Of a stretch of 64,000 nt of DNA, positions 10,899 to 38,575 are shown piece by piece (the first letter of the stretch is position 1; every line of letters begins with the position of its first letter). This stretch comes from Albula goreensis (Eukaryota; Chordata; Actinopteri; Albuliformes; Albulidae). The DNA lies in contig CM040741.1 in assembly GCA_022829145.1 (NCBI GenBank), positions 60,376,547 to 60,440,546 of the forward strand, read 5' to 3'. A program made the translations under genes and the position numbers. The notes below the pieces were generated by a model. It did no database searches. It saw only the letters and a program-made list of their open reading frames with translations, and was not told where the DNA came from.

Positions 10899-11006
10899 AA
10901 TTGCTCCTGGTGGAAATGGTCCAACAGTCTATTGTTCGGCCCCCCTTCACTTCCATGGATTTCCTGTTCAACTCAGCTCTGCCTCACTACGAGAAAATAT
11001 TGCCAG
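10899..11006 (+). pseudogene. Exon-like block, possible mtrex relic
   Basis: The block of 108 nt is flanked by a good acceptor (tttactttcag) and a GT donor and is open in more than one frame. In one frame it begins IAPGGNGP, which resembles the MTREX segment FPAGGDGL, and nucleotides near 10960 (ttcaactcagctctgc) resemble the codons for FNTAM that follow; this reading fits the expected order. In another frame it is open throughout, symmetric phase 1-1, and begins ELLLVEMV, close to ELLLTEMM of the MTREX C-terminal half, which would be out of order. It could also be an exon of an unrelated gene or a chance open block. Confidence 0.35.
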
Positions 11007-13288
11007 GTCCCTACTTGAATAAAAAAGATTTCAACAGAATTTTTTTTTTTTTTTGCTTTTTTGGTCTCAACATTTTTTTTTCTTTTTTGCTTTATCCAAA
11101 TCTTTTGCTGATGCCTAAGGCTTTATTACTCAATGTTGAATGTTGCTCATTACCTCTGAATAAATTCACTGTGCTTTTGCTTTTCTGATTAAAGTAGGCC
11201 TGTGACAGTAACTGAGAGTGTGCTCCCAGGCGGGCCTGGGACATTTTCTCAACTAAAGAGCATTTAAGGATTCTTGATATTTTTCTCATTTTTTCATTTA
11301 TGGTCTTTGAAATACAAATCACAAGCCAATATTTTACTGTAAGAATAACATGAGAAACATCAAGGCTCTTTTCCTTAAGGACTCACTTAGTGTTGAATCT
11401 GGTTATGAGATCTACCTTTGAGTTCTTTAAGCTGTTTCCTGTTGTCACGGCTGAACGCACAGTGAAATGGCACACTTTGAAGAGCTACATCAAAGACCAC
11501 CAGGGCGAGCATTATGTGACAGTCCAGCCAGTGTGCCCAGCAGGCATTTAGCAGTGTGTAAATGATACTGTCAGTGTTTTCTAGCAGCACAGGGACTGAT
11601 AAAAGTCATTTAGCTTGCATACATGCCATTAGCTTTCACTGATGCAATATTAAAAAAGGCTCATCTCCAGTCATTATTGGCCAAAATAATAGCAGTTAAA
11701 TTCAATTTCACCCACATTCAGTTCTGATTAATGGGACTTTTCATATCTAAGGCTTAGAGGGGTATTTTAAAGGCACAGCACTGTTAGAATATTTTATAAG
11801 ATACCAAATGTCAGAGGCCAACTTGTAATCAGATTACACATAACTATAACTGTTATTTTGTTTTTTTTCTAATCTCTGAGTCAGTCAAGCACTTCCACTT
11901 TGTTGCAAAGTCCAGCATAGCACAGTTTGATTGCCTGCACTCACACAGATCATTGTACACTCACAATGCTGTCTTCTGGTTTCAAGTGGTATCTTTGGTC
12001 AAATCAGAGATTTTTAATTATATTCCTTTTTGTGGAACCATATCTCATCTTTTCAGCGCTCATGGGGGATGAGAACCCATTATTTATGAATTGAACAATA
12101 GATATTGGGGTGAAATGAAGGTAATGACACTAGTACACATTTTGTCAATAACTCACACATTTGGGACGATGGTATATTGAAGAATACAGTAATGTATTTT
12201 AGTGTGAATGAGGTCAAACCAGTATTAAGTGGTTTCTGTTATTAATTTTGCATATGAAGGGGAAAAAAAACATTTGTGAAGGAAGTTTTCAACAGCGTTT
12301 CTGATTGGCTGTCAGATGAAAACAAGAACCCTACACAGGCGAGATATTTTACAATGTCATATGTTATTATGGGGGCATGTAACAGGGTGCGGATTTCCTC
12401 ATAAGTTGTTCTCAGGGTGTCACTTTGTTTTCCACACTCTCTCTGTTTTGATTGTCCCTGCTGGCGCCGTGTAAATTGTTTACAACTTGCCCAGCTTCCT
12501 CACATGGCCGTTTTTTATGAAGTCAGCCCTCATTATGGTAAGACTCAAAAGATCATGACACACAATATTAATTTGATTCCCTGTGTCATTGCAAGTGGAT
12601 AATGTGTCTTAAAAAAAATCTTGGTCTCCAGTTAATGGTTTTATTAAAATCTAACTTCTGTATGTTCAAGACCTCATATAAGTACACCATACAAGCCACA
12701 ACAAAGTTGTAAGTAAAAATATTTTCTTGTTGTGAACTGAAAGTTTGACTCTGAGGAAGTTTCAAGTGAACAGTTAGCCTCCCTGACTGCTGTTTGAACA
12801 GGGATGGTAATATTTTCCACACTCTGTTTGTGGCTCTCTCCCCGTGTGGCTTTGATTAACTTTTCTTTATTCATTATGTACCCAGTCTCTTTTACTCTTT
12901 GATATGTTGCTGCATGGTTTTGATTGCAGTGTTTCAGGCTCTGCTATTGGGTTGGATTTGTAAAACCTGCAGGAGAGATCTCCACATGAAAGCTTCACAT
13001 GTTTTAATGCTGCCTTAATTATGATGTTAAAAGCCTGTATAAATGGGACTGAAAGTCTGCAAGGGAATGAAGAAACTGAAGGGGTGCAAAAAGTAGGCTT
13101 GAGTATAGTATTTGGGACTGCTTGTCCAAAAGCATGCTGATATTTTGGCAACCACCATGCATATCCTGATTTTATTTGTGAGATACAACAGGGTACTTGC
13201 CATCATTGGCATGCCATCAATTTGTATATCACAACCGAGAATCATCAAAGGTTGTAGAATATATACTGATGTTTTCTGGCCCACCATG
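11007..13288. other. Non-coding interval
   Basis: The interval is AT-rich with a 14-base T run at about 11041. A plus-strand stretch at 11440-11550 is open in one frame, but has no splice borders that fit and matches nothing I recognise. Confidence 0.6.
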
Positions 13289-13444
13289 CAGGGGCATAGC
13301 ACCGGGGGGGAAAGGGTACTATGTAAACAGGGCTCAAGGGTTAAAAGTGGCCCATGAAAATCTGGGAATTGTTTTTTATAAAGAGTGGAGGGGCCCTCAG
13401 AGCCTGCCTGTGTACAGGGCCCAGAATTTCGAGCTACGCCCCTG
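13289..13444. mobile_element. Probable hAT-like MITE
   Basis: The block starts CAGGGGCATAGC and ends GCTACGCCCCTG, which are imperfect terminal inverted repeats of 12 bp. The flanks are ccaccatg on the left and ccaccact on the right, compatible with a decayed 8-bp target duplication. CAGGG-type ends and 8-bp duplications are typical of hAT elements. The 156-bp interior is non-coding, so this would be a non-autonomous copy. Confidence 0.65.
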
Positions 13445-13552
13445 CCACCACTTGTGGGAGATTCTGTTTTTCCCCATAATTATGCCACATGATCCCACAG
13501 AGGATTGTCAATGTGAAATGTACATCCCTATAATGAGCTGTGTCTGGGAATG

Positions 13553-13587
13553 GTGGGGTGGGGGGTTGGGGGTGGGGGGTTGGGCGG
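13553..13587 (+). repeat. G-rich tract with quadruplex potential
   Basis: This stretch holds successive G runs (GGGG, GGGGGG, GGGGG, GGGGGG, GGG) separated by one or two bases, a pattern that satisfies the usual G-quadruplex rule on the plus strand. It lies 40 bp before the mtrex relic exon at 13628. Confidence 0.7.
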
Positions 13588-13627
13588 TTCTGCAATGCCT
13601 CATGTAATGTCTGTATGTTTGTGAAAG

Positions 13628-13738
13628 GTGGAGCATGTCATAGCCCTGCTGAAGAGGGGTATCAGGATTCACCACAGAGGGGCCCTCCTCGCCCAGAAGG
13701 AAACCGTACTGATCCTGTTCTCCAAAGGCCGGGCCAAG
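13628..13738 (+). pseudogene. mtrex: mtrex relic exon (HHGG segment of the helicase)
   Basis: The plus strand reads VEHVIALLKRGIRIHH, then RGALLAQKETVLILFSKG. Human MTREX has VEHVLPLLKRGIGIHHGG followed by LLPILKETIEILFSEG, so about 24 of 37 positions agree without a gap. The block opens after an AG (gaaag) and closes at AAG followed by GT, as an exon would. The conserved Gly-His-His-Gly-Gly core is broken here (HHRG), and LLPIL is replaced, which is unlikely in a working helicase of this very conserved family. It has introns on both sides, so it is not a processed copy. No stop codon lies inside the block itself. Confidence 0.75.
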
Positions 13739-16700
13739 GTCGACAAGGGCTTTCATCTCCCCTCAGCAGGAAGTCTCCCAATGGCTCCTGAAAGCCTCTG
13801 CTAATGTTGAGTCTAATGTTGCTTTTTACTGTGGGTTCATGGATCAGGAAAAGCATAACTCTATTAATACAGGATAACTTAGGACTTCTCAACCTCTTTT
13901 TATCTCAGAAAATGCACAGACGTCTAATGTGAGACATTTTGTGTTCTTAATCTCACCTGTAGCATGGCTTACTGGCCTCTGTGCCTTCAGGGCCAGCAGA
14001 TCCCTTTTGGAAAGGAAGAGGTTTTTCAGACACCCGAACCAGCCGCCTGCTGCTTAGATGTTAGACGGTAATCTCCTGGCTGAAAGCAGTAAAACTATTC
14101 ACTCTCAGTTTGGGTAGATATGCCACAAAACAATAACTCAGTGTTGGCCTTTTTAAGGCTCATTTCCTTATTTTCCTGTGGTAGATGAAAAGGAAAAAAA
14201 AAACAGCATGACATGAATATGATTTCCTAAAAAAAGGAAAAAAAATCCCCACTTTCAAAAAAGCAACTGCAACTACCTGCCAAAAAATTACAGTGAAAGA
14301 TTTAAATTTTGTTTAGTTAGTGAATTAAACCAAATTTAAGGTTTTTGGTAGCTCTTGTTATTTCATGGCAGTGAATATTAACAATTAATTTTCAGCAAGT
14401 ATTTGTGAAAGCTACCTGCCTGCTAGCTCAAAAGGTAGTTGAGTATATAGGAACATGTACGCTACGTGACTCGCAACCTAATAAATTATGAGAATAAACC
14501 TATATTCATATGCCCCTGTTGCTTGTTGCTGATATTTTTACATCCTGTTGACTGTGCTCTGTAGCTTTAACTGGGGAGCACATTTATCAACAACCTGTCA
14601 ACACAACATTATCTTTTATGACTGTCAGTGCCTTCTCAGAGATTTAATTTGCTATTACCATAACAGCGTTGGTAAAATTTTAAAATAACTGTTGGCTCAT
14701 TGGGGTGAAAATCTTGCTCGCACACTGCTTCAGTATGTCAAGTCTTTTTGAGATCATGCCAGCCCTGAAATCCTGACATCTCTGCAGAATTTGGCCTCAC
14801 CACAAAACTATTAACAGCCATTGTTATGGGCCATACTAAGTCATTGTATGCATGTCCTGTCCATGCATCCTATATCCATCTTCCCTGCTTTGATTTTGGA
14901 AGTAGCTGTGACCCCGTCTTTGCTTCTTTTCCATCTACTCCCTACCCATACATCTTTGTTAAACCCGATCCCTTTGGAAAGCAGACCATACATCTTTGGG
15001 TCTAAAGAGCTGGGTCATAATACCGCTAATGATGTTTAATGTTAGAGTGTGTCTTTGTTTACACAATTAAATGGAGCACATTCCTTGCCAACCCAAGAAC
15101 AAGAGGAATTGTTATTTTTCACAAGATATGAAATGATTTGCTGCTTGTATTGCTATTTTTTGTAAATTCACCTCTAGCTTTTGTTTGCCTACATGAGCTT
15201 TACTATGAAGATAAACATTCCAGTCCACCACAAGGACCCACCAGGGATGTGTCTGAAGGCTTATTTCTAAAGCCAAGAGGCTGATGACAAAACGTAAAGA
15301 TGGAGTGTCAACATAGCCCAGTGATCAGGGATTCTGACGAGGGAGGTTCCAGGGTTAATGTTAACTGAGACAAATTGCTTGGACCTTTGAGCATAACAAA
15401 CATAACATGACTTGTGCTGTGTCAGTAAATAACCAGCTATATACATAAATGAATGGATGTAAATGGATACATTAAATATAATATAAGATGCACTAGATTA
15501 GGATGTGTTCTAAAAAACTGAATAACATTATTGGGCTGTTTTCTTTTCTCCTACAGGGGCTTGACTTTTGCTAATCAGGCGTTTTAGTTTTGTGTGCTCT
15601 AAATAACGTGCGTCATTTCACAAAATCAGGATCTGGACATTAAACAAACAGCCACGTATTGTTTATGTGAGTGAGGAGCCATGACTCAAGCTGTTATGAA
15701 TAAGGGCTTATTTTGAACCATTTTCTGCTGGCATTCAATGGAGTTTAGGAAAGGAAACTGGTGTCCAGAGTAGCTGTTTTCAACATCTGGTGATGATAAA
15801 TGTGCCAAAAGAACATGCATTCAAGGACTCAGGGTTTGTAACAAAGGAATAAAAGTGAGGGGCCTTGTTCCAGTGTGCGACTGTTCTTCTTGGGTAGCCC
15901 AGGCCATCATGAGTTCTTGAGGAGGCAGTGCCAGCCTCCTACCTACTGCAGAGCTTGAACTGGGACTACATCGAGTTGGATGAGGTGTAGGCAAATTAAA
16001 CGAAGTGAATACAAGAATAAGGTTGACAGGACACAGGTGTCAGAAGGTTGGTCGTGGTGGTTCGGTACATTAAACTGACTCCCAAGCGCAGAGCGCAGCA
16101 TCCTGCTGCAGCCAGCAGAGCATTAGTGCCAATGGGCAGTATGTGCTCTTCTGTCTGCTCCTCTGAATTTGATTCTCTCGGTGTCTTCAGTGCTTAGCAT
16201 TTTCATCAATCTCAGTTCATATACGCCTCAGATTAGTCTGGTAAATGCATTGGAGTGTCTGGGTGGATGAGGGAGGGAGTGGAATCTCCATGGTGGATGA
16301 GATGTATGCTACTCAGTTGTTGGAAAACAGACTCTTAAGAGACTCTGATTTAAAGCACTTCTTTCAAATAATGTAAGTACCTTAATCAGTAATTAATTCA
16401 AATAATTCCTTACAAGTAGTGCAAGGTCTGTAAAAGGTTCCTTTAATTCCCTATCAGCTGTCCTAATGTAATCATGGCTCAAATAGGGATACCAGCAAAG
16501 TACAACAGTCTGTACACTTCTGGAATCATTACAGGTCTCTGTTCTCAAAAAGAAGATACTGAGCTTTTCACATTTAATGCATTTTTTATATTAGCTAAAC
16601 AGTTTGCCTTAACAGTTATCTTAAAACGGAAAGCCTAGAAAAATACCAAATGTGATATGTTTTATGATGTGTATCAAGTACTTGCATGATTGGGCTTTCT

Positions 16701-17152
16701 GAAACACATCCTGAAAGCCTAGATCTTGGCAGTCCTTCAATTGATGACACATGCTTTACTACTTACTTGGCTTTGCAATTGGCTAAACTTTTCATTTGAG
16801 TGAAGGGAGTAATATAAAACCCTTGTGCATTGGTGAAAATGTAATTTTGTAGAAATTGAGTGAAACACTAGACACCTGAAAAACTAAATAAAAATGAGGA
16901 CTGCAAAAAGGCCCATTCAATGAATTCAAGGTTTTCTCATAGGTCTGGAAATGGGTGATACACCCAATAATAATACAAACATTGAGGATATACATTGGCA
17001 CAGTACTGATATCATATCAGTATATCATAAAACAAATTAGCCCTTATTTAATGAGATTCCCCTTTAACTATATTGTCTTAACTGTAGTATCACTGCTATA
17101 TCATATAGCTATACACTATCCTGCAATAACATTTTTCCAGCTGGGTTCATTT
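13739..17152. other. Non-coding interval of the mtrex relic
   Basis: No intact exon is seen. A block after an acceptor at about 13990 (ggccagcagatccctttt) weakly resembles the codons for MPARTVLFTNARKF, the next MTREX segment, but it is too diverged to annotate. The rest is AT-rich sequence without recognised repeats. Confidence 0.5.
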
Positions 17153-17200
17153 CAAGGGAAGTATCTGCCCCAGTTCCTCCAGCTGGCTGTTTTACCTGTG
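17153..17200 (+). pseudogene. Possible mtrex relic (KYCLPFLQ segment)
   Basis: The plus strand has aagtatctgccccag then ttcctccag, reading GKYLPQFLQ. MTREX has PKYCLPFLQPGR. The order fits between the relics at 13.6 and 34.2 kb, but only about seven residues match and no clean donor follows, so chance similarity is quite possible. Confidence 0.22.
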
Positions 17201-17519
17201 CTATTTGCCCTGATTACAGAATAATCTGGGGATTGTGTGTTTCTTTTTGCAGCGGGAAAGGAAAGGGAAAGTGCTGAGTTGTCTTTTGAGAGCTGTCTTC
17301 TCTCAGCAGCTAGAAAGATTTGAAAGGCCCGATGATGTACAGGCTTTACAGCGTCTGAGTCCTGAGCTGCTAAACCAACACCAGCCTCTTGAGTGGACAG
17401 GGGTGAAGCTATGCTCCTGGCTGGATGGGGAGACAGATATAGGCCCAATGTGGGCTCGTGTGGAAGTATTCTTTCATTTATTTTTTGATCATGATACTCT
17501 AAGAACACTCTGGAACATT

Positions 17520-17685
17520 CCTGGCTCAAGGGCAATTCTTTGAGTAAAGGTTCCACTTATATTCCTCTTATATGTTGTATGTCAGTTGACTTTTCTTCAA
17601 AAAGTAGATTCATGCTAACTGTTACTTGAATATTTTGTCATGTCCTTTTTCGTCCTAGTCACAGATTATCTTTTTTCGTGGGTAC
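17520..17685 (+). repeat. Diverged local repeat, copy A
   Basis: This block shares long matched stretches with 17980-18145, in the same order: caattctttgag, ttcttcaaaaagtaga, acttgaatattttgt and agtcacagatt. Spacing between copies is about 459 bp. It matches no transposon family that I recognise. Confidence 0.75.
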
Positions 17686-17979
17686 ACTGAAGGGAAGGAC
17701 TGTACTGTAACAGGAAATTTCCATTAAGTGTGCAGTTTACTTGGTTTGTACGACACAAGTTTTGGAGAAACTAATTTCATTAACTGCAGATGAAATGTGG
17801 TACACAAGACAGAACAGCTCTGGCTTTGCATTAGATACACTGAAAACATACAGATTAGAGAATGATTGTTATGCTCCGTGGACTGTTAATCCAGATGTCA
17901 AAGGCTTTTCTTCCGGTAAGGATATTCTTGGCTGATTTGCACATAAAGAGCCATATTTGTGTTTGTAATCTCACCCTTC

Positions 17980-18145
17980 ACTGTACAAGGACAATTCTTT
18001 GAGCACAGATTCCATGTGTATTCCTCCAGCTCAATATGCCAGTTGAGCTTTCTTCAAAAAGTAGATCCATGCCAACTTTTACTTGAATATTTTGTAATGT
18101 CCTCTTTTGCCCCAGTCACAGATTGTTCATGTACTGGGGGGTGAA
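17980..18145 (+). repeat. Diverged local repeat, copy B
   Basis: This is the second copy of the block at 17520-17685, in direct orientation, with about one base in five changed. The two could be remnants of a local duplication or ends of an old inserted element, the interior being 17686-17979. Confidence 0.75.
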
Positions 18146-20009
18146 GGTGGGGGGTCAAGTCATCTGTTGCTACACAAATGCGGTGTTAGTGCCAAAATTC
18201 AATACTGTTTTGGAGATATTTGTTAGATATGGGCAACATTATGGGTCATAACTGTCAGTGTACTCAAATTTGGATCCATTAAGTGTTACACAACAGTTTA
18301 TTTGAAGGGGTGGGAATAAAGTTAATCTTGGTTTATGATAATTAATCATTAATCTTGGCCCAATATCATCAAGTTTATTTGCATTATACATTGAAACTAA
18401 TTATCTGACAAAGCCTTCCTTTTTTGCAATGCATAATTAAAATCATGAAGCTTATGAAGTTGCAACTGCTATAAAGCCACAGAATGGTATTCTGCTTGCA
18501 AAATAAGTCTTGAAATGAGTTAAAATGATTTATTTTTTTGACCTATGCATTTTTGTTTGTTTTACTTTGTATCCATAGAGAAACATAATGAATACCCAAA
18601 CTCATTTAAGTTTTTGGAATGTAAAAATAGGCAGTGAATGCAGTTATTTTACCAGATCTGCACCTGGGCATGCCCAGTCTTAAAACCTGACTTTGAACAT
18701 TATCACATTAGGCCTCATGCTGCTTTTAAATGTGGTAATGTCATTTTTTCCAGCTGCTGTCACATTTTTAAAATGTATCCTCTGTTCCTGAAGTAAAACT
18801 CCATACGGAAATCAGATATACAAAGTTCTGTCAATGCACAGAACAAATTATGAGAAGCAAACTGCCTTGGGGTGTTCAAATCCAAGATTAATGCAATACA
18901 ACATACTCTTGACTGTAAATAAACAATGAGCCGGGTGGGGATGAATGGCCTGTTATTATCATCATACTGTATAGCCATATGTTCTGAACAGATTTTACTT
19001 TTACCCCATTTATGGCTGTGTGTCCTACACAGGCCAATTTTTCCTTTCAACGGGAAAATTATGTCAGACATAATGTCTGCATTAGGGACAGCGCTGTACA
19101 TTAGGTATACTTAAAGTGGCCTATTTTTGCATGGTCTTTGTGCACTGATAGCCTGCATAAACCAGCTGGGACTTCCTGAGCTGTCAGGAGTTTGGGACTC
19201 AAAAGGACTGTAATGTGTTGAGTTTGAACCCTTTGGGCTGTGAATCGATGCAGTGGACTTAAACAACCTTGTCGTGGTAGCTGGCTCATCTGTTACTGCT
19301 AAATTTTCACTCACATCTCTCTTGTGTTTTTTTTATTAAGAGGAATGGTACGATTTTCTCTTCAGGCAACAGTGCCATAAACTGGCTCCATGTCTCCCAC
19401 TGTCAAGCTTACAGTTCATATGATTGGTTTAAAAAAGCAAAAAAACAAGAATTAAAAAAGTTCTAAAGCCATAGTAATGTTAAAACATTCAACTGAGTTG
19501 CATTGGCTAAAAAACGTATCAAACTCTATCACAGTTATGATCATCTCCCTGATTTCTATTTACTCAGTTTACACAACCATAGTACAGTTGAGATGATCTT
19601 CTCAGCCAGGCCATCCACCTTTCCTACTTTGCTGGACCGAGTCTGCTAAATATTGAATGATAATGAGAGGGTGTGTGCAGGAGAAACCCTCTTCCGTATT
19701 ATATTACACTGCTGTTTCTGGAGTCATGGAGAATGAAACCGTACCTCATGCTATTAACTGATTGTCTGGTGCATGCAGGAATGGATGTGGGCTCAATGAT
19801 TAAGGAAGACCTTGAGTATCCTATTTTGGAAATTACAACGCACAGTTTTTATGGTGTCCCCTTTCTCCACCCTCCAACACTTCCCAGTGTTTATAACTGT
19901 TGATCTTTATGTGGTTCCAATTATCTGATGAAAGTATTTCAAATAAAAAATGAAAATCATGAAATATTCACGTTTCATTAAATTACATTACTTATTGCAT
20001 TGAGATGAA

Positions 20010-20105
20010 AGGGGTGTTTTATCCAGGGCCTCTGGTACATTTTACACTATTGTTTATACAGCCAGGTATTTATGAAGTACCTGGTTCAAGAGTAGTGTCA
20101 TGTTA
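20010..20105. repeat. Short dispersed repeat, truncated copy 2
   Basis: The tatccagggcc, tatacagccaggtatttatg and tacctggttcaagagtag stretches match the middle of the repeats at 7571 and 39922. Both ends are missing or too diverged to see. Confidence 0.5.
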
Positions 20106-23100
20106 AATGTAGGCATTGAATGGTCAAACTTAAGGAGAATATTTCTGCACCTAGAACCACAAATGTGCTGTGCCTTTCTGTTACTTTTGTAAAGGCTTTA
20201 GCTGGTTTTGTCTTGTGAAATTCAGTAGCATAAGGTTGTTGTATGGTAGCAACGTGAATTGGATAATGCATCTTTGTGAGGCTGTTTGTCTCATTGGATA
20301 TCCACCAGACTGCTTCTGAGGCAGTTTGATATGCAGGGCATTACTGTACAGTGTTTCACTGTTTCATATTTTCACGTGCAGGTATGAACAATGACACACT
20401 CTGTCTCTCCCCACATATACTTGATGAATGCTCCACTGTATCACCATAAATAGAAAACTCACCCAATTTCCTTATAGAGTTGAAAAAAACTAAAAGCACA
20501 GTACAACACCATAGAAATCGCTATTTAGCCGAGCGTTGTGATGTACTGCAAAATCCCTCAGCATAGTTCCAAAGTGGAAAAGGAGACCAGAGGACTTCAC
20601 CTACAGACTTAAATACTGTGACAGAATGAGGCTTCTAGGTACAGCCAGGAAAAAGTTGCCTGTGCTCCCTTATTTTCCATTTTTCTAAAATCTGATCCTG
20701 TTTTTTGTGCCCAGTTCTCCTGATTGAGACAAGCACATGCTGTCCTTTGAGGCACGTGCTGCAACTGCCACCTCTGCTTCTTTTAACTCATCAGTCCGCC
20801 ATGCTGAGCTCTGCACTGTGCAGGTCATTCACTGAGAGACCACCGGAAGTGAACGCTCCAGCTTCAGAAGGTAAAAGTGCTACCATGCATTTGCTCTACC
20901 CATGCACTGAACCAGCTGATTCCAATTACCGAAATCTCTACAGCCAACTAGGGAGAGCCAGTTAGTTAAATCAGCTGGTTTAGTACATGGCTGGAACAAT
21001 TACATGGCAGTATTTAAACTTCATAAGGCCTGGCTGTCCACCTCTGAAGAGTCTATGACATATCAGGTTTTTTCGCTTTTATAGACTGCAGATGCCTGAT
21101 CCATCAGAGGAGGTCTGTGAGCTGGATGAGCCTGCTGAAACACTTACTCCCTGGGCAATGTCGATTAGGCACTGCCCTGGAGGGCTGCAGGCATGGTCTG
21201 GATTTGATATCTGCCCAATGGGGTACATCCACACACTGGAACAGTAACAGCTAGGGGAGTCTCCTGGGACTCCATATTATTCCATTTTTAAAGTAATCGA
21301 CATATTCGAGGTTATAACTAAGAAAGGTGAAGCTGGGAGAACTAGTTCAGACAATTTGTAGTAAAAAATATATTGTTTGTTGTCACATAGATTTGGGTTC
21401 AATTTTCAATGCTTTTGTGCCTCAGTAAGTCATGCTGAACATTATTTTTAGACCTTGTGTATCTGCAGACATCTGGCTCAACGCTGATATTCCAACCAGT
21501 GGTTCTGGAGTTTTTCTCTCCCCCCGCCCTGTTTTAATTTCAGCTACGTTTGAAGTATGCAATCTGCCTAGAAAGATTGCTGGGCAAGACTTCAAAGCAG
21601 CATTTGAAATCTGACTGAATTTCAATCTTGTGTGTAATTCCCTGTTAATGTAATTAGCAGGCAACATTCATTCAGCATTCTACTTAATATAATATTCCCT
21701 CTTTATGTTAACATGCCATTTTGCTCTTTCTGCAGATCACAACAGGAATAATTAGGTGAATTAGCAGATTGAAAAAGGTTTTCCTGGGGGAGGAGTGGGA
21801 GGAAACTTATGTATGTTGAACCTTCTTTCCTCTTGTCAGTACCTTCATAAAGAAGAGGTGAACTTGACTTTTGAATTTCCCATTGTTCCACGTGGTAAAC
21901 TTCTTAATTGCTTAACAGGCCTATAGCTACAAATTTGTTATTTGATGCAAAGGGGGAATCAGGGCATAGAATAGCTCAGATTTTCAGATTTTCCCATAAA
22001 ACCACACAGAGACATTGCAATCAGTCCTGTCTTGAAACACTAGCTTGTATTGGTACAGTGTATTTTAGTGATTCAAATATTTAGGTAGTTCTTTTCAGAA
22101 AAGACATGAGTTAAACATGGCAGGCTTTCTCTTTTTAAGATTCATTACTCTCTGTTTGACTACACTGCAGATGTTTTTGGCTTTGAAAAATATAAGGGTT
22201 TTGACAAAGTCCATTTTATTTTATTGAAAGTAAGTATCCATATTTATTTTTTGTAATTCATTGCATAGCTTGCACTCACTGTTTTAATTTAAAAGAAAAA
22301 TATTACCTAATGTAAAAGTAATGAATGAGAATAGTGCTTTTATTTTTTGCCAACAATTTCCTTGTTTTGGTGATGTGGCAGCAACCTGTGGCTCCAGGTA
22401 TACCAGTGTGGTTCCAAAACAAATCAATCAGTGTGTTTATTTTGCCATTATGTCACTCATTTATCATTATTTCCATTTTACAATACATTTTATCTTGCCA
22501 ATCTTCCTGGAAACAATGGCTTCCTAATTGTGGCTGTTTCTGAGCCAGCATGTTTTTGCACTGAAGGGAAATCTCCACTGCCGACAGACATACACAAATG
22601 CTGGGATTATCTAATGAGCCATTGCTTTTTTATGCCTTTCTAAATGAGCTGGATCAAAGTAGATCTTGGCAGATAAATCTAATAACTGGGATTTATATAC
22701 ATCTATATATCTTTTTCTTTTCAGGATCTTGGCTGAAATGATTAGTTCTGTGTATTTGTGTTATTTACTACTGTAATGAAATGTTGTCCTGCAAGCAGTC
22801 ACAGGAGAGACACTGGAGTGGAGCTCAGCAACTGTGTGCGTGAAGAGCGACACGAAAGGGCTCCAGGCTGGCTGGATTCTCAGTGTAAGTGGAAGTAAAT
22901 GTCTGTATATGCTATTTCAATCACAGTCCTGGCATTCTGGCTCCAAACAAACGCCATGATAAAAGCAAAGCCTAATTAAGATAAAGGATCAAGTCTCATT
23001 AGCTCAAGTGGGAGGAAATTGGAAAAGCAAACCCGGTTAACCTCTCAGGCACTGCACGCTTTCAAGAAAAGCTTGTTTACTGATCACTGTCACTTGTGCA

Positions 23101-26100: not shown

Positions 26101-29100
26101 TCCCTTGTCTGTTGTAGTTCATTTCAGGACGTTATGTAAACGTTTTCAGATTACATACAGATTACAACGTTTCCCTAGGATTGCGGCCTATAATAGAGGC
26201 TTTAGGAATGATATGGTCGTGACATGCACAGCTACAAAAATGTTTTAACGCACATCCTCAGATGCCCACTGTCCCAGACGCTTGTTGACTACGTGACGTC
26301 AACAACGCTGATTTGGAAAGCAAAAGGGCTGAATGAAGGCTCAGGAGGGTGGGGGCTCTCAGGCTCCGGATGTACCCCACCCGACGGAGCAGAGACGCCA
26401 GCCTGGGTCCTGCTGGCTCGCTGTGTGAACAAAGCACAGGTGGGGCCCGTGTCCCTGAGGACCCTCGGCATAATGTAGGAACGGACATGGGCAGAAAATG
26501 ACGTTGTTGACCTTTCCAGGCTTGGAAGTGACCTTCAAATTATATTATAATTAAAATGTGGATTGATTTCAAGCAGACAAAGAAAAATACAATTGTAACA
26601 AACAAGCATAATTTTATCTTTTTTATAGTTATTGATTACTTCTGGATTTTGGAGGATGCGATTAATTTATGATTAGATTTAAACCAGTTATTTAACTTGT
26701 GGAATTATCATAACAGTTTAATTTATAATAGGGGCTGTGGTTACACCAAAAAATAACAGTAAAATATAACAAGTAGGAAATGTAAATTAAATGAATTACA
26801 GTATGGTTAAAATGTATCCACAATGGATGATGGACAGACTGTTTGCCCTTTGGGATAAAGATCTATTGTCACTGTTCTCAGCAGTCGATGCACACAACAA
26901 ACAGAGCTTAATTATAGACTCTGGTGCATCCACTGCTAAATTAACAATTGAAGCAAACAGTTATTTTTCCCAATGGCAGGATTTTAGCAACATGTCAATG
27001 TTTAATTCTGTTTTCTCTGACAAAATTTATTATTTTACTTATTATAATTACTGTTTTAACATTTCAACATTTATAATGGTTAAAGGGCTTACCATAGAGG
27101 GCCTTTTATTAGCTTCCAGTCACAACGGTAGGGTTTTTCTACATTTTTTAGGTAATTTTGGTGTTTTTCACATGTACAAACAAAAGTAACATTTTCAGAA
27201 ATTAAAAGTGCTGCTGTACATTTTTCCACCTGCACACTAAAACAGGTGATTTAATTAAACATCTCATCTACCTGGCTCAAGAGTTGTTGTAATTACAACC
27301 AGCTGGCTTATTGCATGGATGGAATAAATATGTGGTTGTACTTTTACTTTCTGTTGCAATAGTTTTCCGCCTCTGAAATGGAATACCTGTAAAGTTTCAC
27401 AGAGGGTGAAAGCAATCCCAGTAAACCAGGTTACGCTCTCTGTAATTAGCCATGACATGGGATTCACACCTGCTCTTAAATCCTTAGTCATCTTTAATTG
27501 TGCTTTCTCTTAAACATGCATGACAATATCCAAGACCTCTCTAAATCCATAACTCACTTTATGTCCACATATATACTCTTCAATGGTGCTTTGAGAGTGA
27601 ATTTCGTATCTCAGCACCATTCACTGTGGAGTCCTTTTTATATGTGGAAGCAAATGGTATTTTGGTTTTCTGTGTTTCATGCAGCTCAGCAATGGAAGAG
27701 GCGCTGGCCTTTCCACAGCTATTTGACTATAAAATTTTAGTGCAGTCTTGAATATAAACTTGACAAGAAAATGACAAGATGCAGGCCTATGATTGAATGC
27801 TGACAGCTTTGGCCTAAACTATAATATGTTATTCACTGGTTTTCATGTGTGGGCATTTTTTTTATATTCTCATAAGTATTTTCTCATAAGTACTATTGTC
27901 ATTAGTATGTATACATTTTCATTATTGCTGATGAAAACACTAAAACAGCTCCTTCAGAAGTGACACTGCCACAAGGGGTCACAGTGTACTGAAGGTTCTG
28001 GCCATGTTTTCAGTCAGGTTTAGTGATCCTTTTGATGTTTGCATTCTGCTAAATGCCATTTGTTGGGCTGTGTAAAGGTCATGCCTTGCTTTGGTTTTGT
28101 AAGCTTTCGACAGGTTTTCTTAGATGTAACTGTGTGTTTCTCAGGTAGGAAGGGCCCCATGCCTGAGCTGAGCAGAGCCTGGGCTGCACTGTGGTGAATA
28201 AAACTGGAGTGCTGAAGCTTATGGTTTTTACCACTTCCTTTGATGTCATTTCATGCTTCTAAAATTTGGTTAGTCCTGCCTGGCCTTACCCTTTTGGGGA
28301 TTTGAATTCAGTCAGATTTGTCCTTACCTTTGACTAATAAATAATGAAGTGGACTTCATATCTTTACATCTTTTATCTCTATTAAAACTAAAATTAAGTT
28401 AGTTTTAATCAAGCTGCTAAACAATGTTAGTGAAGAGATGCAGGCTAGAGGTACAAGAACTTGATCTCGCTCATAATATTTTAGTATAAAAACGATGCTT
28501 CTGTAATTCAATGACTTAATACCACAGTCTTTTAAAGTTTACTTGTAAATGAGTACCTGTTTACGGTATTATTCCATGGCCAGTTGCTCTCTTTAACTCC
28601 TTCATGTTGTAAGGCTCCTACAGAAGGACTGATTTCAGAGTTGAAAATTATTATAGAGTTTATTATTCATTGTGAATAATAAAACATACTGGTAATAGGT
28701 ACAGTAAGAACTGTTTTTCCAATGTATTAATATGTAATAAATCAGTAAATAAATATATATAATGCATCAAATAAAAATATAGCACTAAATTTCAATAGTT
28801 AAATCACTATTTCATTAATTTGTAAATGTCTATCAGATTTTTTGGTAATGCGTTTTAATTTCCTACAATGCATAATCATTCAAATGCTTAGTCATAGCTG
28901 TCATAGGAAGACATGTTCTTGTGTTGAGTCAAGAGCTCAACAGCAACCAGAATGCAGCTGTGTTTTCCCCCTATGCTTAAGTATGAAATCAAGAAATATG
29001 CACATGACTCATATTTAAAAACTCATGCCGTGCAGTGAAGGATGGTGACTGAGTCTGAGATGTTAATTGATGTTTTATTTATGATAGATGTTTCCTACCA

Positions 29101-29871: not shown

Positions 29872-29872
<1 letters not shown>

Positions 29873-29902
<30 letters not shown>
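29873..29902. repeat. (TC)n microsatellite
   Basis: An uninterrupted run of 15 TC units. Confidence 0.95.
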
Positions 29903-29905
<3 letters not shown>

Positions 29906-32559
29906 CCCTGTCTCCTGAACAAGGGACGCTTCTGCTCAGCAGCCTTTTTGTTCCAGGAAAAAGGAAAGGCTTTCTCCCTTTCCTACTCACTTTCCAGCCC
30001 AACATAATGAGATAAAAATAGCCCCAATGTGAGCACACTGTAAAGAGATTTGTTTATCCTCGGTTTTTACATGGGATGTTTTGAATGGTTGAAAATGTAC
30101 CATGTCTAGTTTGTGGGATTTTTCAGTACAGTGTTCATTCTTCCTCTTTCTGTTTTATTTTTAGCTGCACAGATTGTCCCCCGAACACTATCCCAAAGTT
30201 GCCACTTCACAAACACTCTTCCCGTCAACACTGCCATTTCCAGCGTTCACGCAATCACATTCCCCTCTCATCAGGACAGTGCTGTCTCCAGGGGAAGGGT
30301 GGGGGTGAGAAGTGTTGGGTATATTTTTAAAGCACTCTCCATGGCTTCACATTCCTCCTAAATCTTTTCGGGCCATTTGGACAGGACAAGGCCTGTGCCC
30401 TATCTGTCTACGAAACCTTCCAGCAATTATGTCGTTTTCCTCGGTGGTTCCGACCTCAGTTCCTTAAGAATATTGTTTCTCAGTGCTTGTTTTGCTTAAT
30501 TCTAACTTTCTCACTCTTCTGCTGACTAATTACTTCTGCGTGCATAGTTGTTGGGCTCCACCTTCTAAATATAATGTATTGTGTGTTTCTTTTCACTGTA
30601 ATTATGCTCATTGAGTCAGGGTAAGATTCAGCCAGCACTCAGGTTAGTCTGCATTTAAGATTAGGCACTGTGATTGCTGTTTGATTTATGGAGGGCATTG
30701 GGCAAATGAATAGGTCTTGTTTTTCAGTCAAATGGGAAATGGTTACAAAACGCAGGTGAAATTTCATGAAGATCCGTGTACATCTTAGAAAGGCTTGTGG
30801 CACTGGTACATTAAATCAGCTTCAAATAATGCAATGGGTCTAACATTCATTTTTTTTGTATGGTAATTTCAGGATAATGAACTGATTTGTTTGCTCAGTA
30901 AATGAAAAGCATATTCTGAACTGGTGGGCATTCTGAGACCTTAAGTGGTCTTTCCCAGCCCAAAAATAAATAGAGTGAGTTCAGGCTCAGAAAGGCAGGA
31001 GAGCCAAAATGTAGCTTTTCCCTGCTGACCCAGGGGGGCAGATCAGCATCCTGGGAACGAGAGGGGGGGGGCTGTCTCCGGTTGGCCCAGAGTCAGAGAG
31101 GAACTGACTGACGCTCTGTGATTGCTGGCACTGTGGATGCTAGTGAAGAACATGTTTGTGCAGCTGGAGTGGACAGTAGGGCCAGAGAGTGTCCTGGGCA
31201 GTAGGGGTGAGCAGTGGTATAGAGTTACTGTCTAAGTCAGACTTTCTTTGGTATTGCTTCCCAGATACTATCTGTCTTAGGCTCCAAAGCATCAGTGTTA
31301 AACCTCACTTGACTCATTCTGTCATGTGGCAGATATATATCACATCTTGTGGTTTGAAAATTGTGTAGCACACTGATCCAAGTCTGGAATCTGATGTTTT
31401 AGTTAAACCAAAATCATTGTGGCTGTAAAAGTCCAAATTTCTGACTTCCTCCTAAAATGATTTCTCATAAGCTGTTAAGTACTTTCTTGCATATACTATA
31501 GCATTGACTATCTCATAATAAAGTTAGTGTGCAGATATGGGGGAATTGCTTTTCCAACTAGCCCAGTAAACTCCTACAACACAACTCTGTTTCTGTCTTA
31601 AAAGTATTTTAGAGTAATTTCAGGAAGGAAGTGAATAATGAGTGGATCCTTCAGGTACAGTTTACCATATCTGTTCTTATCGGTGCAGACAGGCTGCAGT
31701 TTTTGCCCTTCCCACTTACGGGGCACCACTTTACTTCTGCCAAGCCTGTTTCTTGTGCGAAACCCTTGCAGGGAGACATGGGTGGGCCTTGGGACATGCT
31801 GGTTACATGTGTTGTAGTCTGTCAGTGGGCTTGTCTGGACAAGGGCTGCTGCAGTTGGTGCTGGCACAGCTGCTTCATGGCTCAGCTGTCAATTTGGGGC
31901 TCAGCCCTAAAAACAGAGTATGCGGCTTATTAAATCACAACTCTCTAGCACTGAGCCGATGGGGTGCATCCATTTTAGCACGAAGAGCCATTTTGCCAGT
32001 TAACCATCAATCAGCAGATGGTGAATAGAGGGTGGAAATATTGATCACTGAAAATTAGATGGCCAGAGTAAACACTATTTATGAAAATAGGGGCATTTAT
32101 GACCAACGAAGCAGAGTATGGCACAATATCAATTCAATTTGGAAAATTTGTCAAGCACATCTTTGGCACATTTTCTGTAATGTTTCACTTTGGTTCAACC
32201 CCATAACATCCCTATACCCTCTTGAACCCAGTCACTGCTCTTTCCAAAACCAATTTGCCAAGTAACTGTGAAAAGCAGTGACCTTCATTTTTTCCCATGA
32301 GACCCCAATCTTTTAGAGTAATGGGAGAGGCGGCAGAGGCTATGCACGGAGGAGTGTTTACTTGACTGGGGCGGATTAGACTGATTGCTGTGATGTTAAT
32401 GGCAGGAAATGCTGTTTATGCTGGACAGAGATGGGGGGGGGGAGGTGGGTGGAGATGATGGATGGCCAGTGTCTCTTGGAGAAGCCGCTCAATGCAACGT
32501 CAGCCTTTTCTCTTGTACCTCCCTGCCAAATGGACCATGGGGGTGGTTTGGGGGAGGAG

Positions 32560-32760
32560 GGTGGGAGGGGGAATGCAGCGCAAATATTGACTCCACACTA
32601 GCGGCGGGGTCTCTGGGAGGCTCGAGCGCAGCACGGGCTAGAGCGATGGTGACGGTCGGCGGCCTGGATGTTGAAGAGGAACGCCAGCTGCAGCCAAACA
32701 AAAGGACCAGTGCTTGCACCGGGACCGCCCCCTCGCTTGTCTCGTTCGTCTTTGAGACTG
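32560..32760. other. CpG-rich patch
   Basis: CpG dinucleotides are dense here (for example gcggcggggtctc, ctcgagcgcagcacg, gatggtgacggtcggcgg) compared with AT-rich surroundings. It could be a small CpG island or an enhancer, or leftover coding sequence. A plus-strand open frame from 32409 runs through it, but its translation matches nothing I know. Confidence 0.35.
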
Positions 32761-33745
32761 TGCTGTTTTGTCTCTGCGTGAGTCTATTGCATGACATGAT
32801 GCTAAAACCGCTGGCCCCCACCCCCCCTTCCCCCTCAATAGCTTTTTTGTACCATTAGCCAGCTTGTTTGTTGATAAGGGCTACTTGACAGAGCACTCCT
32901 TTACAATGGAAGGTCTGTATCTGTCTTACTTGTCTCATAACGAGCGGCACCATTGCTTATTGCCAGTTTTTGTCCTCATCATTGTGTCAGCTCTGCCCTG
33001 CAGGAAGCACAAAATGTGATGCTTTGGTAAAGTATGGTGCTACAAGGGCAACAGGCACAACCCAATCAAACAAACTTTAAAGATATATGCTGTTCTATTA
33101 TAGAGTAAAAAGTATACTGGCCAAAATACATCTGGCTGTCTCCAATAATGAGCAAAGAAACATGGTCAGACTTATTGCTAATTAAAATCTGTTTTGATTA
33201 AATTGCATATTCACTAAAGGACACTAAGTGCATGTAATTGGGTTCCAGCCACAGTCTTTATTTCAACAAAAGAGGCAATCACCAGAAAGCTATTTGGCTG
33301 GGTGAAAAAGCAGGTATTGCACTGTGAAAGCTAGCTTGATAGATAATGATAGACGCATACTGTTGTTGCTGTATGCTCCTTTTTTTCTTTTATACTGACT
33401 TGTGGGTCATTATAATACCATCCATTTTTTCCCGATTACCAAGAAATATAGCAAAATTCTTCCAGCTAGCTCATTGCAGTTAATTAGCATTAATATATTA
33501 ACAAATCTATAGGTTCGTTGTCATTCTCAAAGTTGTGTTAGCCTGCAAGGTGGTACGGTTTCCATAAAAACATTAATTACATGAGTAGGCAAGCCCCCGG
33601 TAGCTACAGTGTATGGTTTCTATTAGCTGTTTTCAGGTAGCCCCTGTTTATCTTGATCATTTTTTTCCAACGGAAAGTTTGTGTCTTACTAACCCCACGC
33701 ACTGACCTTTTAGCAAAACAATTACGTTTGTTCTTCCCACTGCAG

Positions 33746-33896
33746 AACAAAGTTGAGGACAAAAGAGTACAATGTGCCCTGCCTTTCAATAATTTTCACC
33801 TAGATCAGCAAGAAATCAGGCAGAGGTCTGCGTGGGAAAAAATACAAAAACAGCATTATGTTTTAAGTCATATTCAAGGAAAGAGTGCAGTCCAAG
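33746..33896 (+). pseudogene. Exon-like open block, origin uncertain
   Basis: A strong acceptor (gttcttcccactgcag) and a donor (AAG then gtatca) bracket 151 nt with an uninterrupted frame. Its position would fit the MTREX exon carrying FNGLFNDLSAEQAT, and the block reads FNNFHLDQQEIRQ, but the similarity is too thin to assign. It may be a chance exon-like block. Confidence 0.25.
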
Positions 33897-34171
33897 GTAT
33901 CAGCATGTAAACCAAGTTCTGCAGTTGTATTTTATTGCTCCGTTACAAGCTCGGTTTGAAATTTGTCCCAATTGTTGGACTTGCCAATCCTTGTGGCAAG
34001 CAAACCTGCAGGTATTCTTTTTAATGTACGGCTCAAACATATTTTGGGAATAAAGTTCAACCTTGCTCATAAGTCCAGGCAGGTTTTTTAACATTAATTG
34101 GCCCCAGACGTGTATTGAAGAGCACTGACTTGATTTACTTCTCTCTCTCCCTCTTTCTTTAACCCTGGCAG

Positions 34172-34217
34172 GATGCCAAGCATGAACAGCTGGCTTCACC
34201 GCTGGCAGGACATGCAG
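34172..34217 (+). pseudogene. mtrex: mtrex relic exon (EQLAGPLRQMQ segment)
   Basis: After an acceptor (aaccctggcag) the plus strand reads gatgccaagcatgaacag, ctggcttcaccgctgg and caggacatgcag before a gtaaac donor. MTREX here encodes EMPKLTEQLAGPLRQMQ; the codons for EMPK, EQLA, PL and QMQ line up at nucleotide level, but small losses near position 34182 and after the CTG break the frame. Only the 3' part of the ancestral exon seems to remain. Confidence 0.6.
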
Positions 34218-34423
34218 GTAAACTGAACATGACAGGGACGTGTCAGCAGTCAGAAGTGATCTGTGTGCTACAACTAGTGTGTACACAAACAGACAAGTTC
34301 CCAGTGCCAAGTTAATTTTACACCCTGTATCCAAGCCCTAAAGATCACACCCATCTGTTTCTTTAGGTGTATCTCAGTAGGCTCGTCATTTGTTTTTGAA
34401 CTTTTGCTGCCTTTATTCATAGA

Positions 34424-34505
<82 letters not shown>

Positions 34506-37500
34506 ATGGCATAATGTATTTTTCATGTGGAGTTATGCAAGCTTCCAGTCCTGTTTTCTTGGTATCCTCAAAGTGTTTTTCCAATTAATGTTTGGTGAAA
34601 TGCCTAGATTCAAGAATGCACTGAAAGAGCTGCCAAGGTGTAGGCAGAGGCCAACCTAGAGGTAGGAGAAGAGACATATTTTAGTTCCCTCCCACCCCCA
34701 ACGTTTGTGGTCTACACTTGTTCCAACGTGTTCATGTTCTTGTCAAATAAGCAAGATGGCCAAGTTTTAAATGGTAAGGTTTTCTATTGTAACTGCATGC
34801 CAGTTTTTTAGGCACAGAGAAATCATATTCATTTATGGTATGGAATATTGCCATGGAGGACTTATGTAAATTTTTAACCTCCTAAAAGCGAAAGCGAACA
34901 CTAGCAGTGTTTTGTAACGATGTGGTTCTTTTAAAAGGAGCGCCGACCTTCACTCTCATGATGTTTCTAAATATATGAGTCAGGTTACGTGACCTCTTTT
35001 TGATGCATTAAGGGAAATCAATCCCTGCCGTATCATTCTTTTTTTTTTTAAGTGGATTCATCTATTGATTTACCCTTTCAGAAAATAATTTTGCTGTCAG
35101 AGCTTACTGCCAGCAAATGCTTTTCCTTCACCACCAGTCTCCACATGGTCTTTTCTGGCACTGACTGATCCTCCCATTTCTTGATGTTATTCTTTTATAA
35201 CTGTCCATAGTCAGGATTCATGGTGCCATGGATTTGACCGTCAAGGTTAGTTCTGCGGCTGATTCAATTAAAAGCACTCATTATCCAAAGCTAACGACGT
35301 CCTGACCCTCAGGGTCAATTGCTTTCTGTTGCTTTTTCAAAGATCATTATTTTTACAGTGAAATATTTTCACTAATTGAGAGGGGGAAAGGGTAACATTT
35401 CACAATGGGGTGAGAGAATGGGGGGTCCATATGGAGGTCCCTATCGACCTACATTGACCAAAAGTATGAAAGTGCCTTAAAAAGGGGTGAGATGGAATTA
35501 TGGCCATATTTTTGAATGTATACCACCTGTGTATTATCTTGGCTGTAAACAAAATGAATTAAAGCTAAAACACTGAGCATAGTGTGGGATAATTTAAGGT
35601 CACAGCAGGGGTCCATCCTGGGAGATATCCTTTACAATGTTTGAAAATAGGGTTTTCTATTCTTACAGTTGTTCTTCTTACAGTTGTTTCCTATTTGCAT
35701 TATTTAAATAATCTATAAGTAGAAATCTACAATTGCATGGTGCAATTTATGTACCTCCAGCTGAACTGAAATTCCAAATTAAACTTATATGTATCTGTAT
35801 ATATGTGGCCTTTTTTGAAAAGAAGCCTTATTTGAAAAGGGGTTAATCTACTCTACTCACAAGTTATGCTCTGTCTCACAAGTTATATATTTTGATTATG
35901 CAACAAACCAACACATGTTGTTTACTGTTTACAACAGTTGGCTGTGGCCGGTAGAGCAGTTTTCACTTGCTAGTTGGTGGTTGGAGATATTTTCTTACTC
36001 ACATAAATTATGTAGTTTAAGTGCTTAATGGAAACTGGGCACTTGATTTACATTTCCCCTCATAAGACTTTCAGTTCAGACTGAAGAGCTTAATTTATTG
36101 TGAAATACTGGTTTCTACAGAAAAGAGGTTATATTAGTACAAAAGAGATTATATTGGTCACTGAAGATTCTGTTCTTGAAAAAAAAAAAGAAAATATTGG
36201 TTATTCTAACCTAGAAACAATATCTGCTCTTTGTTGATGTTCTGATCTTGGTGTCTCTATAATGTCACAGAGCCTCTGGTCATTCTTACTGGCTAGAGAC
36301 CACACTGAAGCATGAGCAGACTTGAATTTCCAGCACCAGCACACATGTAATCTCTGGCAAAGCTAAAAGGTTGTTATCAAGGGCTTAGCCATCTTAGAGT
36401 TAGTTATTTTCTGCTGGCAGGTGTCTTGAACTTTAATCTAATATGGGGCCCTGTGTTTCACCCTACGCATGCATCATGAAGATTGATCATCTTGTTTAAA
36501 TGCAGCTGGGCACTGGCGCTGCTTTTGTAAAATATTACGAAGTCATTATTAAAAAAATGTTGAATTGAACCGATCCCTTGATATTAGCAATCCTGAAAGT
36601 CAAAAATGAGCTTGATTTGGCCAATTTCCTTTGCATTAGCACATGCAGCAAACTGTGTGTCTAAAATGTAATGAAGGGAAAAATCAGAGAAAAAGTGAAA
36701 TAATGTGTATTTAGCCTTATTGCTTTGGTTGCCAAGAAACATAGATGAGGTTAAGCAACAATATCAATCTTAATAGAGAGGTAAATTAAACTTTTGTCAA
36801 GAATGAAGTGGTTCTGGTTACTTTACATTGATCCAACCAGATCTAATATATGGACCGTTTCAACAGCTAGATTGAAAATCTTGCACATCTAGATTGCAAA
36901 ATGCCCCATTTGAAAAAACTTGAGATTCAAACTACCATATCTGTAGGAAGGAAGTTAGCAATTTCTTACGTCCTGTAAGGATAGGGCCAAAAGGTTGGCT
37001 AACTTTATTTCTGCTGCTGGAAAGTCGACCCATTCCTAACAAGAAGTGACATGGAGATATCAGATTCAGTGATGCACTTGGGTTACATACCACTGAGCTA
37101 GCTTCCCAGAACAGCATGATGTCAGAGAGCAGATTCACAAAATGTAGACCCTGTGGGAACAGATTTCTGGACATGGAAGAGATGGACCCCTCTATAAATC
37201 TATGCTACTACAGACCAGGGATATGGAGTATGAGACTGGTTTACCAGTTTAGCTGGAAAACTTTGGCCAATTTGCCAAAGTATAAGTATTTCAGAGGTGG
37301 TTTTATTTCATGGCCAGATATTCATTAACAGTTATCGTGTATTTCTAACATAATTAATTGATTAAAAGTTAGTTTGGTTTAATCTCTAAGATAAGAGCCT
37401 GTTTAAACTCTGTGATGCATATATTCACCAAATTAACTCAGATAATGTGTGAATCTGCTTTGTAGTACATCCTGTAGCGCTCTCAAAATAATTGTGACCT

Positions 37501-38233
37501 ACATAATGGTTCTTTTAGCAACAGAATTGGTTCAGTAAATGTCATTACCATGTAAAGGTGGCCTGGTTGGTCCATCATTGGATGTGGTAGGCGGTGGTCT
37601 CCAGTAGAGTCTAAATATAGTACATTGGTCGTAGTGGCATAATCTAGTTGTTCTCAGCTTTAGTCCTTATAAAGCTGTGTGCTTTTGTTACAGCCTCTCT
37701 CAATCAATTAAGGCTGTTGAACGCATGAGGTTATGTTCTTCTGTAAAAACTTTTCCCTCCTGTATGAACTCATCACAGATTTGGCTCTTAGCCATTTACA
37801 TTGTCTTTGAATACTTAGTTATCTGAGAACTGTTCTGTGTCAGTGACAAAGTGTCTATAGTTATAAACACTGTATATACTCATATATGAATGAATAACTT
37901 TACCTTCTAAAGGAACGCTTTCCTATGTAGTGCAATGAGAAGATGAAAGCATGAGTTGATCTGACAGATCAAAAGAACTGGAATATAAATATGGAATTAT
38001 TCTTCATTAATTCTACATGGCATAGATTAGTTAGAGTTAAAAAGTTAGAGTAAAAGAGTAAACACATGCAAGTCTTTGTAGACCACAGATGAGAGTTTTT
38101 AGCTTAAATAGCCCTAACCTGTGTAATGGACCGTTGGGTGCAAGGACCCTGGACATTTTGCCAGTCCATTGCAAGTGCAATATATATTATATATTAGCCC
38201 TAAACCTGAAGTCCATGTGAATACATTTTGCAG
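34218..38233. other. Non-coding interval of the mtrex relic
   Basis: It holds the long (TG)n tract at 34426-34503 and a small imperfect 22-bp tandem repeat near 36121-36162. No exon is recognised. Confidence 0.6.
34426..34503. repeat. (TG)n microsatellite
   Basis: An uninterrupted run of about 39 GT units, 78 bp long, the longest perfect microsatellite in the window. Confidence 0.97.
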
Positions 38234-38382
38234 TGTGACAATGGAAGTGGATTTCCAACTGGAGGATGAAGTGAACAGACAGATTTCCTTTCCCACCGCA
38301 GTTTCTGTCTGTCCACCTGTGAGAGACAAAGGGCCACCTTTCGCTCGTAAATCACAGAGCCTTCACATGTCTGTGAACCAAG
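38234..38382 (+). pseudogene. mtrex: mtrex relic, penultimate-region exon
   Basis: The block lies between an acceptor (acattttgcag) and a donor (CAAG then gtgtgc). Its start resembles the MTREX codons for VSAEAKLEIDEE (here VTMEVDFQLEDE), and near the end gggccaccttt-cgctc matches the codons for GATFAH, followed by a diverged CKMTDVFEG stretch. The expected exon length is about 138 nt; here it is 149, so the ancestral frame is shifted inside the block. The next relic follows after only about 93 bp, in the right order. Confidence 0.6.
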
Positions 38383-38475
38383 GTGTGCTGGTCGTCTTCA
38401 GCAGTATGACTGCCTGGCCCCTTCTGCTGTATTCAGTTCCCAGTGACTCATCTTCTCCCCTTGCTCTGTCTGCAG

Positions 38476-38575
38476 GAAGCATCATCCTCTGCCTAGAGAG
38501 TCTGGAGGGGCTTCTGGACAGACGCGTCTGCCAGCTGAGGAGAGCTGCAGACGGAGGAAAGGGATATGGCAAAAG
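38476..38575 (+). pseudogene. mtrex: mtrex relic exon (GSIIRCMRRLEELL segment)
   Basis: After a good acceptor (tctgtctgcag) the plus strand encodes GSIILCLESLEGLLDRRVCQ; MTREX has GSIIRCMRRLEELLRQMCQ near its C-terminus. The phase at the 5' border (glycine codon split after its first G) agrees with the MTREX exon. The 3' half, which should read AKAIGNTELENKFAEG, is scrambled. A GT donor follows. The last MTREX exon (KIKRDIVFAASLYL) was not found between here and plpp1. Confidence 0.68.

Follow-up and report, generated by a model that had tools for sequence, protein, structure and literature searches.

Remains of an mtrex gene between dhx29 and plpp1 in Albula goreensis: a probable ohnolog pseudogene with an intact counterpart on another contig

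The DNA analyzed here (the window) is a stretch of 64,000 nucleotides from Albula goreensis, corresponding to positions 60376547-60440546 of contig CM040741.1 (hereafter C1) in assembly GCA_022829145.1, whose 208 contigs total 931.9 Mb. The window carries exons of dhx29 and of plpp1 on the minus strand and, between them on the plus strand, the broken remains of mtrex (Mtr4/SKIV2L2). According to passages of PMC13271354, the MTR4 protein acts as the helicase in the TRAMP-like, NEXT and PAXT cofactors of the nuclear exosome. A sequence-only reading of this locus had proposed that mtrex is dying in place here, as one copy of a duplicated block. We examined the remains using two queries, namely human MTREX, matched to PDB 6d6q chain M, and the protein of an intact mtrex found on contig C4 of the same genome.

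A tblastn search of the window with human MTREX gave two clear matches on the plus strand, at 13625-13738 (expectation value, E, 8e-8) and 34608-34790 (E 4e-7). Further collinear matches at 20484 (E 0.10), 12264 (E 0.23) and 38475 (E 0.51) stood at background level; a match out of order at 2535 was equally good (E 0.13). We also performed a frameshift-tolerant codon-model scan, in which 18 of 120 matches formed a collinear chain with a score of 473.5, and all 10 matches scoring at least 30 fell inside this chain. With the same settings, the control chains scored 137.5 on the reverse strand, 129.6 with the reversed protein, 141.8 with the DHX29 protein and 155.2 with MTREX in 40000-64000, and the maximum in 60 Markov sequences, for which 60 rather than 120 matches were kept each, was 129.3. 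The C4 protein gave a chain of 475.6 against controls of 100.5 and 104.9. Thus, the segments lie in mtrex exon order between dhx29 and plpp1 beyond chance, and the earlier description of correctly ordered segments with a broken frame is borne out.

Single matches were judged more cautiously. Noise reached 34.4 in the Markov sequences and 33.8 with DHX29, and a single match of the reversed fish protein scored 36.0, so that scores below about 36 depend on order and position. By combining the scan using the C4 protein with exon-wise DNA alignment, we were able to place exons 9-17 and 21-26 (Table 1). Eight of these (12, 13, 15, 16, 17, 21, 25 and 26) stand on their score alone, and seven (9, 10, 11, 14, 22, 23 and 24) rest partly on order. 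Exons 18 and 19 were not seen in the scan or alignment of the interval, and the exon-wise DNA alignments for exons 20 and 27 were too poor to count. A match at 4077-4135 to residues 147-165, which scored 20.7 (16.7 with the C4 protein), entered the chain and was taken as noise. More exons are visible than the sequence-only reading had listed. The block at 10899, where it began the interval, is not mtrex, since it scored 20.6, out of order; the interval extends from about 4.1 to 39 kb, starting beside the dhx29 start codon, with relic exon 9 at 4678. Among the three positions that it had singled out, 13628 has clear tblastn support. Position 38476 has tblastn support at background level, together with a codon-scan score of 42 at 38463-38577 and a DNA match of 38464-38540 to C4 exon 26 (E 3e-6). 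Position 34172 has no tblastn match; its codon-scan score at 34143-34220 is 24.6, which is at noise level, and exon 24 aligns there at 60 of 72 bases with the donor site kept.

Table 1. Features placed in the window (positions counted from its first nucleotide; scores are from the codon-model scan, and DNA E values are for matches to the C4 exons)
Feature	Position	Strand	Evidence or remark
dhx29 5' coding exons	178..4075	-	start codon at 4075; gene runs on left of the window
Possible mtrex promoter/5' leader remnant (suggestive only)	4450..4478	+	resembles sequence 42-70 bp upstream of the C4 mtrex ATG
Relic exon 9	4678..4752	+	score 30; DNA E 1.6e-4 at 4693-4754
Relic exon 10	6323..6400	+	score 33 with C4 protein; partly order
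Relic exon 11 (weak)	7006..7038	+	score 22.6; order only
Relic exon 12, donor GT lost	12256..12341	+	score 52; DNA E 1.6e-7
Relic exon 13, HHGG changed to HHRG, both splice sites kept	13628..13738	+	tblastn E 8e-8; score 81; DNA E 7e-21
Relic exon 14 (weak)	15181..15228	+	score 21; order only
Relic exon 15, two frameshifts	16263..16342	+	score 43
Relic exon 16, one frameshift	19595..19734	+	score 39.5
Relic exon 17, stop and frameshift	20484..20619	+	score 78; DNA E 8e-15
Relic exon 21, two frameshifts, donor kept	26317..26445	+	score 49; DNA E 1e-6
Relic exon 22 (weak)	28144..28250	+	score 29; partly order
Relic exon 23, donor lost	29896..29968	+	score 34; partly order
Relic exon 24 (EQLAGPLRQMQ region), donor kept	34143..34217	+	score 24.6; 60/72 bases to C4 exon 24
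Relic exon 25 (GATFAH exon), stops and frameshift, acceptor lost, donor kept	34605..34761	+	tblastn E 4e-7; score 98; DNA E 8e-18
Relic exon 26 (GSIIRCM region), two frameshifts, acceptor and donor GT kept	38463..38577	+	score 43; DNA E 3e-6
plpp1 exons 6 to 2, with two alternative exons 2 (52301-52465, 57401-57559)	39367..57559	-	exon 1 right of the window

Nine strong relics together hold 342 codons with 11 frameshifts and three stops. By order, sequence and exon borders the remains belong to the same gene as functional MTREX/Mtr4 (PDB 6d6q chain M), but exons 1-8 are missing, the frame is broken and splice sites are lost. Judged from these defects, the relic cannot make the helicase.

A search of the genome with the whole MTREX protein (40 matches from 42 candidates) showed the exons of one gene on C4, at about 10337820-10362325 on the minus strand. 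The remaining matches comprised two relics on C1, weak hits to helicases in general and, on C3, a Ski2-like gene; no third mtrex was among them. The C4 gene has 27 exons and 1034 codons, with the Walker A and DEIH motifs in frame, in a model built with GT-AG borders imposed; in a first model with a wrong last exon, 910 of the 1042 human MTREX residues were identical. The anticipation that another copy must serve the genome is thus upheld, and the C4 gene, whose function we judge from its open frame, is expected to supply the helicase and to carry the whole load.

The surroundings of the two loci also correspond. A copy of plpp1, the partner of that on C1, adjoins mtrex on C4, and beyond plpp1 on both contigs lies a gene that we take to be csgalnact-like (C1:60449794-60453588 and C4:10314198-10317952). 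A blastn comparison of 94 kb of C1 with 80 kb of C4 gave 22 rows. Eleven of them fall in plpp1 and the csgalnact-like gene, seven pair relic exons 9, 12, 13, 17, 21, 25 and 26 with the same C4 exons, in order, and four lie off the diagonal, one being a GT repeat. The spacing of relic exons 24 and 25, about 0.4 kb, is the same as in the C4 gene. In a genome search with dhx29, for which 34 of 196 candidates were scored, matches were reported on C1 and none near the C4 mtrex. No relic of dhx29 was detected in the 22.7 kb upstream of the C4 mtrex, where the best score was 30.1 compared with 35.9 for the reversed protein and 27.1 on the other strand. Given the intact C4 mtrex, the second plpp1, the lack of a dhx29 found nearby and the exon-to-exon DNA pairing, C1 and C4 look like copies of a single block that underwent reciprocal losses, in which C1 kept dhx29 and C4 kept mtrex. 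This agrees with the suggestion that the gene was lost from one copy of a duplicated block. In the 12 kb of C4:10322000-10334000, the C4 plpp1 showed only the type of exon 2 found near 52 kb in the window (score 158; the next best, for a copy of the other type, was 18.5). It therefore seems to have lost one isoform, with the C1 plpp1 keeping both alternative second exons.

We then considered the missing 5' third. Nothing above noise was found for exons 1-8, which include those encoding Walker A and DEIH: the best score for residues 1-289 was 25.4 in the window and 27.1 in the stretch carrying the rest of dhx29 (L021), both below the 36.0 of the reversed peptide. The earlier observation that the Walker A and DEIH exons are not visible therefore holds. 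About 600 bp separate the dhx29 ATG at 4075 from relic exon 9 at 4678, compared with 3.3 kb from the ATG to exon 9 in the intact C4 gene. When the relic was scanned with residues 300-413 in 4076-12250, none of 200 random sequences reached the real chain. A comparison of 0 of 8 with 11 of 19 gave a Fisher p of 0.008. Under simulated decay, the probability of missing all eight exons was 1e-8 at 0.35 substitutions per site and 9e-4 at 0.45, each exon being searched alone. These results suggest that a 5' deletion probably explains the missing exons. Such a deletion alone would have killed the gene, and may have been the killing event. In human, dhx29 and mtrex form a head-to-head pair. A promoter-like match at 4450-4478 includes an 11-base identity, but 4, 12 or 26 of 200 random sequences scored as well, depending on the scheme; over a wider range of scoring, 28 to 93 of 200 were as good, and an earlier scoring did not rise above shuffles. 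A remnant of the mtrex promoter or leader at this place is suggestive only.

Taken together, we consider it very probable that the C1 relic is an ohnolog pseudogene of mtrex, left in place after one of two duplicate blocks lost the gene. The teleost-specific (3R) genome duplication is the most likely origin of the two copies of the block, which comprises dhx29, mtrex, plpp1 and the csgalnact-like gene. A deletion reaching from near the 5' end of mtrex into intron 8 or exon 9 would then have removed the start codon and the exons for Walker A and DEIH while leaving dhx29 untouched, and the remainder would have decayed neutrally through substitutions, frameshifts, stops and lost splice sites. With the C4 block keeping mtrex without dhx29, the neighbors would have been sorted reciprocally onto two chromosomes, the C4 gene supplying the helicase.

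With respect to which duplication was involved, a homeodomain query, for which 150 of 231 candidates were scored, showed clusters on eight contigs (C3, C5, C6, C12, C14, C19, C20 and C22), which for a teleost is a complete duplicate set. These eight Hox-like clusters point to the 3R duplication; duplicate Hox clusters are retained in eel, as stated in part of PMC3286462. A later segmental duplication of the block, with the pseudogene otherwise the same, is improbable in our judgment. It would fit the fact that only a shared block of about 100 kb was examined, and also the transversion distance at fourfold degenerate sites (4dTv) of the neighboring genes, which is 0.458 when corrected, compared with 0.317 in tarpon and 0.386-0.402 in eels in passages of PMC9730501, although the raw value is 0.30 and the comparison is loose, as the published values may be corrected or raw. 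On the other hand, the two copies occupy separate contigs of chromosome size and have at least three genes in common, their synonymous distance is high, and Hox-like clusters are also duplicated in this genome. An initial idea of a sturgeon-, salmonid- or carp-type duplication, based on one internal repeat pair, was dropped given the genome size of 932 Mb.

Next, we compared codon positions to estimate the time of death. Between the relic and the C4 gene (389 codons from 11 relics), the differences at positions 1, 2 and 3 were 0.275, 0.290 and 0.458, whereas those in the two retained gene pairs (518 codons) were 0.143, 0.081 and 0.409. The ratio of the position-2 to the position-3 distance was 0.52 (0.40-0.68) for the relic and 0.14 (0.10-0.20) for the retained pairs. 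In other words, positions 1 and 2 of the relic have changed alike, unlike those of its neighbors, which is neutral decay. The fourfold distances were alike, 0.78 for the relic (72 sites) and 0.82 for the retained pairs (180 sites), and both are thus compatible with a single age of duplication. We calculated the neutral fraction of the time since duplication by subtracting an assumed 0.02 from the position-2 distance of the relic and dividing by half the fourfold distance of the neighbors. The fraction was 0.84 (bootstrap 95% range 0.59-1.18), or 0.85 (0.62-1.16) with pooled fourfold sites, and the true value is probably not smaller, because the alignable pieces are biased towards little change. 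We infer from this pattern that the relic is long dead rather than dying, contrary to the proposal of a gene dying in place. Given that 3R is dated to 286-267 million years ago in part of PMC11259977, a fraction of 0.59 to 1 of its age would mean a death about 160-286 million years ago. We also considered a recent death of the copy here, with both mtrex genes functional during most of the period since the duplication. The exons are indeed still recognizable and several splice sites are kept, but the equal divergence of positions 1 and 2, and a neutral distance that is most of the per-lineage distance since duplication, make such a late loss unlikely, slightly more so than a segmental duplication. 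As for the insertion of a retrocopy between dhx29 and plpp1, or a chance resemblance of intergenic DNA to MTREX, we give hardly any credence to either: nothing was found in favor of a retrocopy, which is refuted, as the sequence-only reading had also concluded, by separate exons spread over 34 kb with splice remnants, ending at homologous junctions at the proper place of the gene, and chance, although seven of the 15 placed exons and the 10899 block are individually no better than noise, is refuted by the chain score relative to its controls and by the seven ordered exon-to-exon matches to C4.

Several points nevertheless weigh against the preferred reading, that of an ohnolog lost early by deletion and decay after 3R. 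As noted, seven of the 15 placed exons lie at or below single-match noise. When residues 1-413 were scanned in 4076-12250, three of 100 random sequences matched the real chain, and the placements of exons 9-11 and the deletion are therefore less sure than the rest. The search of each exon alone in the simulation is easier than the real scan. The genome search with dhx29, which bears on the reciprocal loss, covers 34 of 196 candidates. The attribution to 3R is likely rather than proven, the shared block of C1 and C4 having been compared over about 100 kb. In addition, the date assumes equal rates, Jukes-Cantor distances and the value of 0.02 for the constrained branch.

Loss of ohnologs and reciprocal gene loss after the teleost genome duplication have been described, and in the cases given in passages of PMC7161988, as here, one duplicate was lost and alternative copies were lost for neighboring genes. 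Those losses were inferred from absence, whereas the remains of the lost copy are readable and alignable here. Eel and tarpon genomes, which are slow and rich in duplicates according to parts of PMC9730501 and PMC3286462, likewise show duplicate Hox clusters and a moderate synonymous divergence of pairs. The event is thus ordinary in kind and well known, and it is the legible body of the lost copy that is unusual. Literature searches on MTREX pseudogenes, skiv2l2 in zebrafish, DHX29 with SKIV2L2, ohnologs and their reciprocal loss, relic ohnologs, pseudogene remnants, Hox genes of tarpon and eel, and bidirectional promoters yielded no account that we recognized as the present case, although one may exist in print. 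A broader proposal has, in our view, an even chance of being correct: that this copy was lost soon after the teleost duplication, perhaps at least 160 million years ago, and stayed readable through a slow lineage, that slow teleosts hold many dead 3R copies, and that the divergent dhx29-mtrex pair was split oppositely. If this is true, surviving remains, rather than missing copies, could reveal in what order, how and when genes were lost after the duplication; should the early date hold, such relics would allow the timing and mechanism of loss to be measured directly. In practical terms, the analysis identifies the working copy of an RNA-decay helicase gene and warns annotators off a gene model at the C1 locus.

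With regard to the flanking genes, which had been described as intact, this stands for plpp1, whose exons show open frames and constraint; for dhx29, the evidence is a match covering 1262 of 1369 residues. Rfam and tRNA scans of the window gave nothing. The sole internal DNA repeat pair detected by blastn lies at 17527-17667 and 17986-18124 (81.6% identity over 141 columns), and a perfect 31-bp unit is present in 2.1 tandem copies at 61343-61406.

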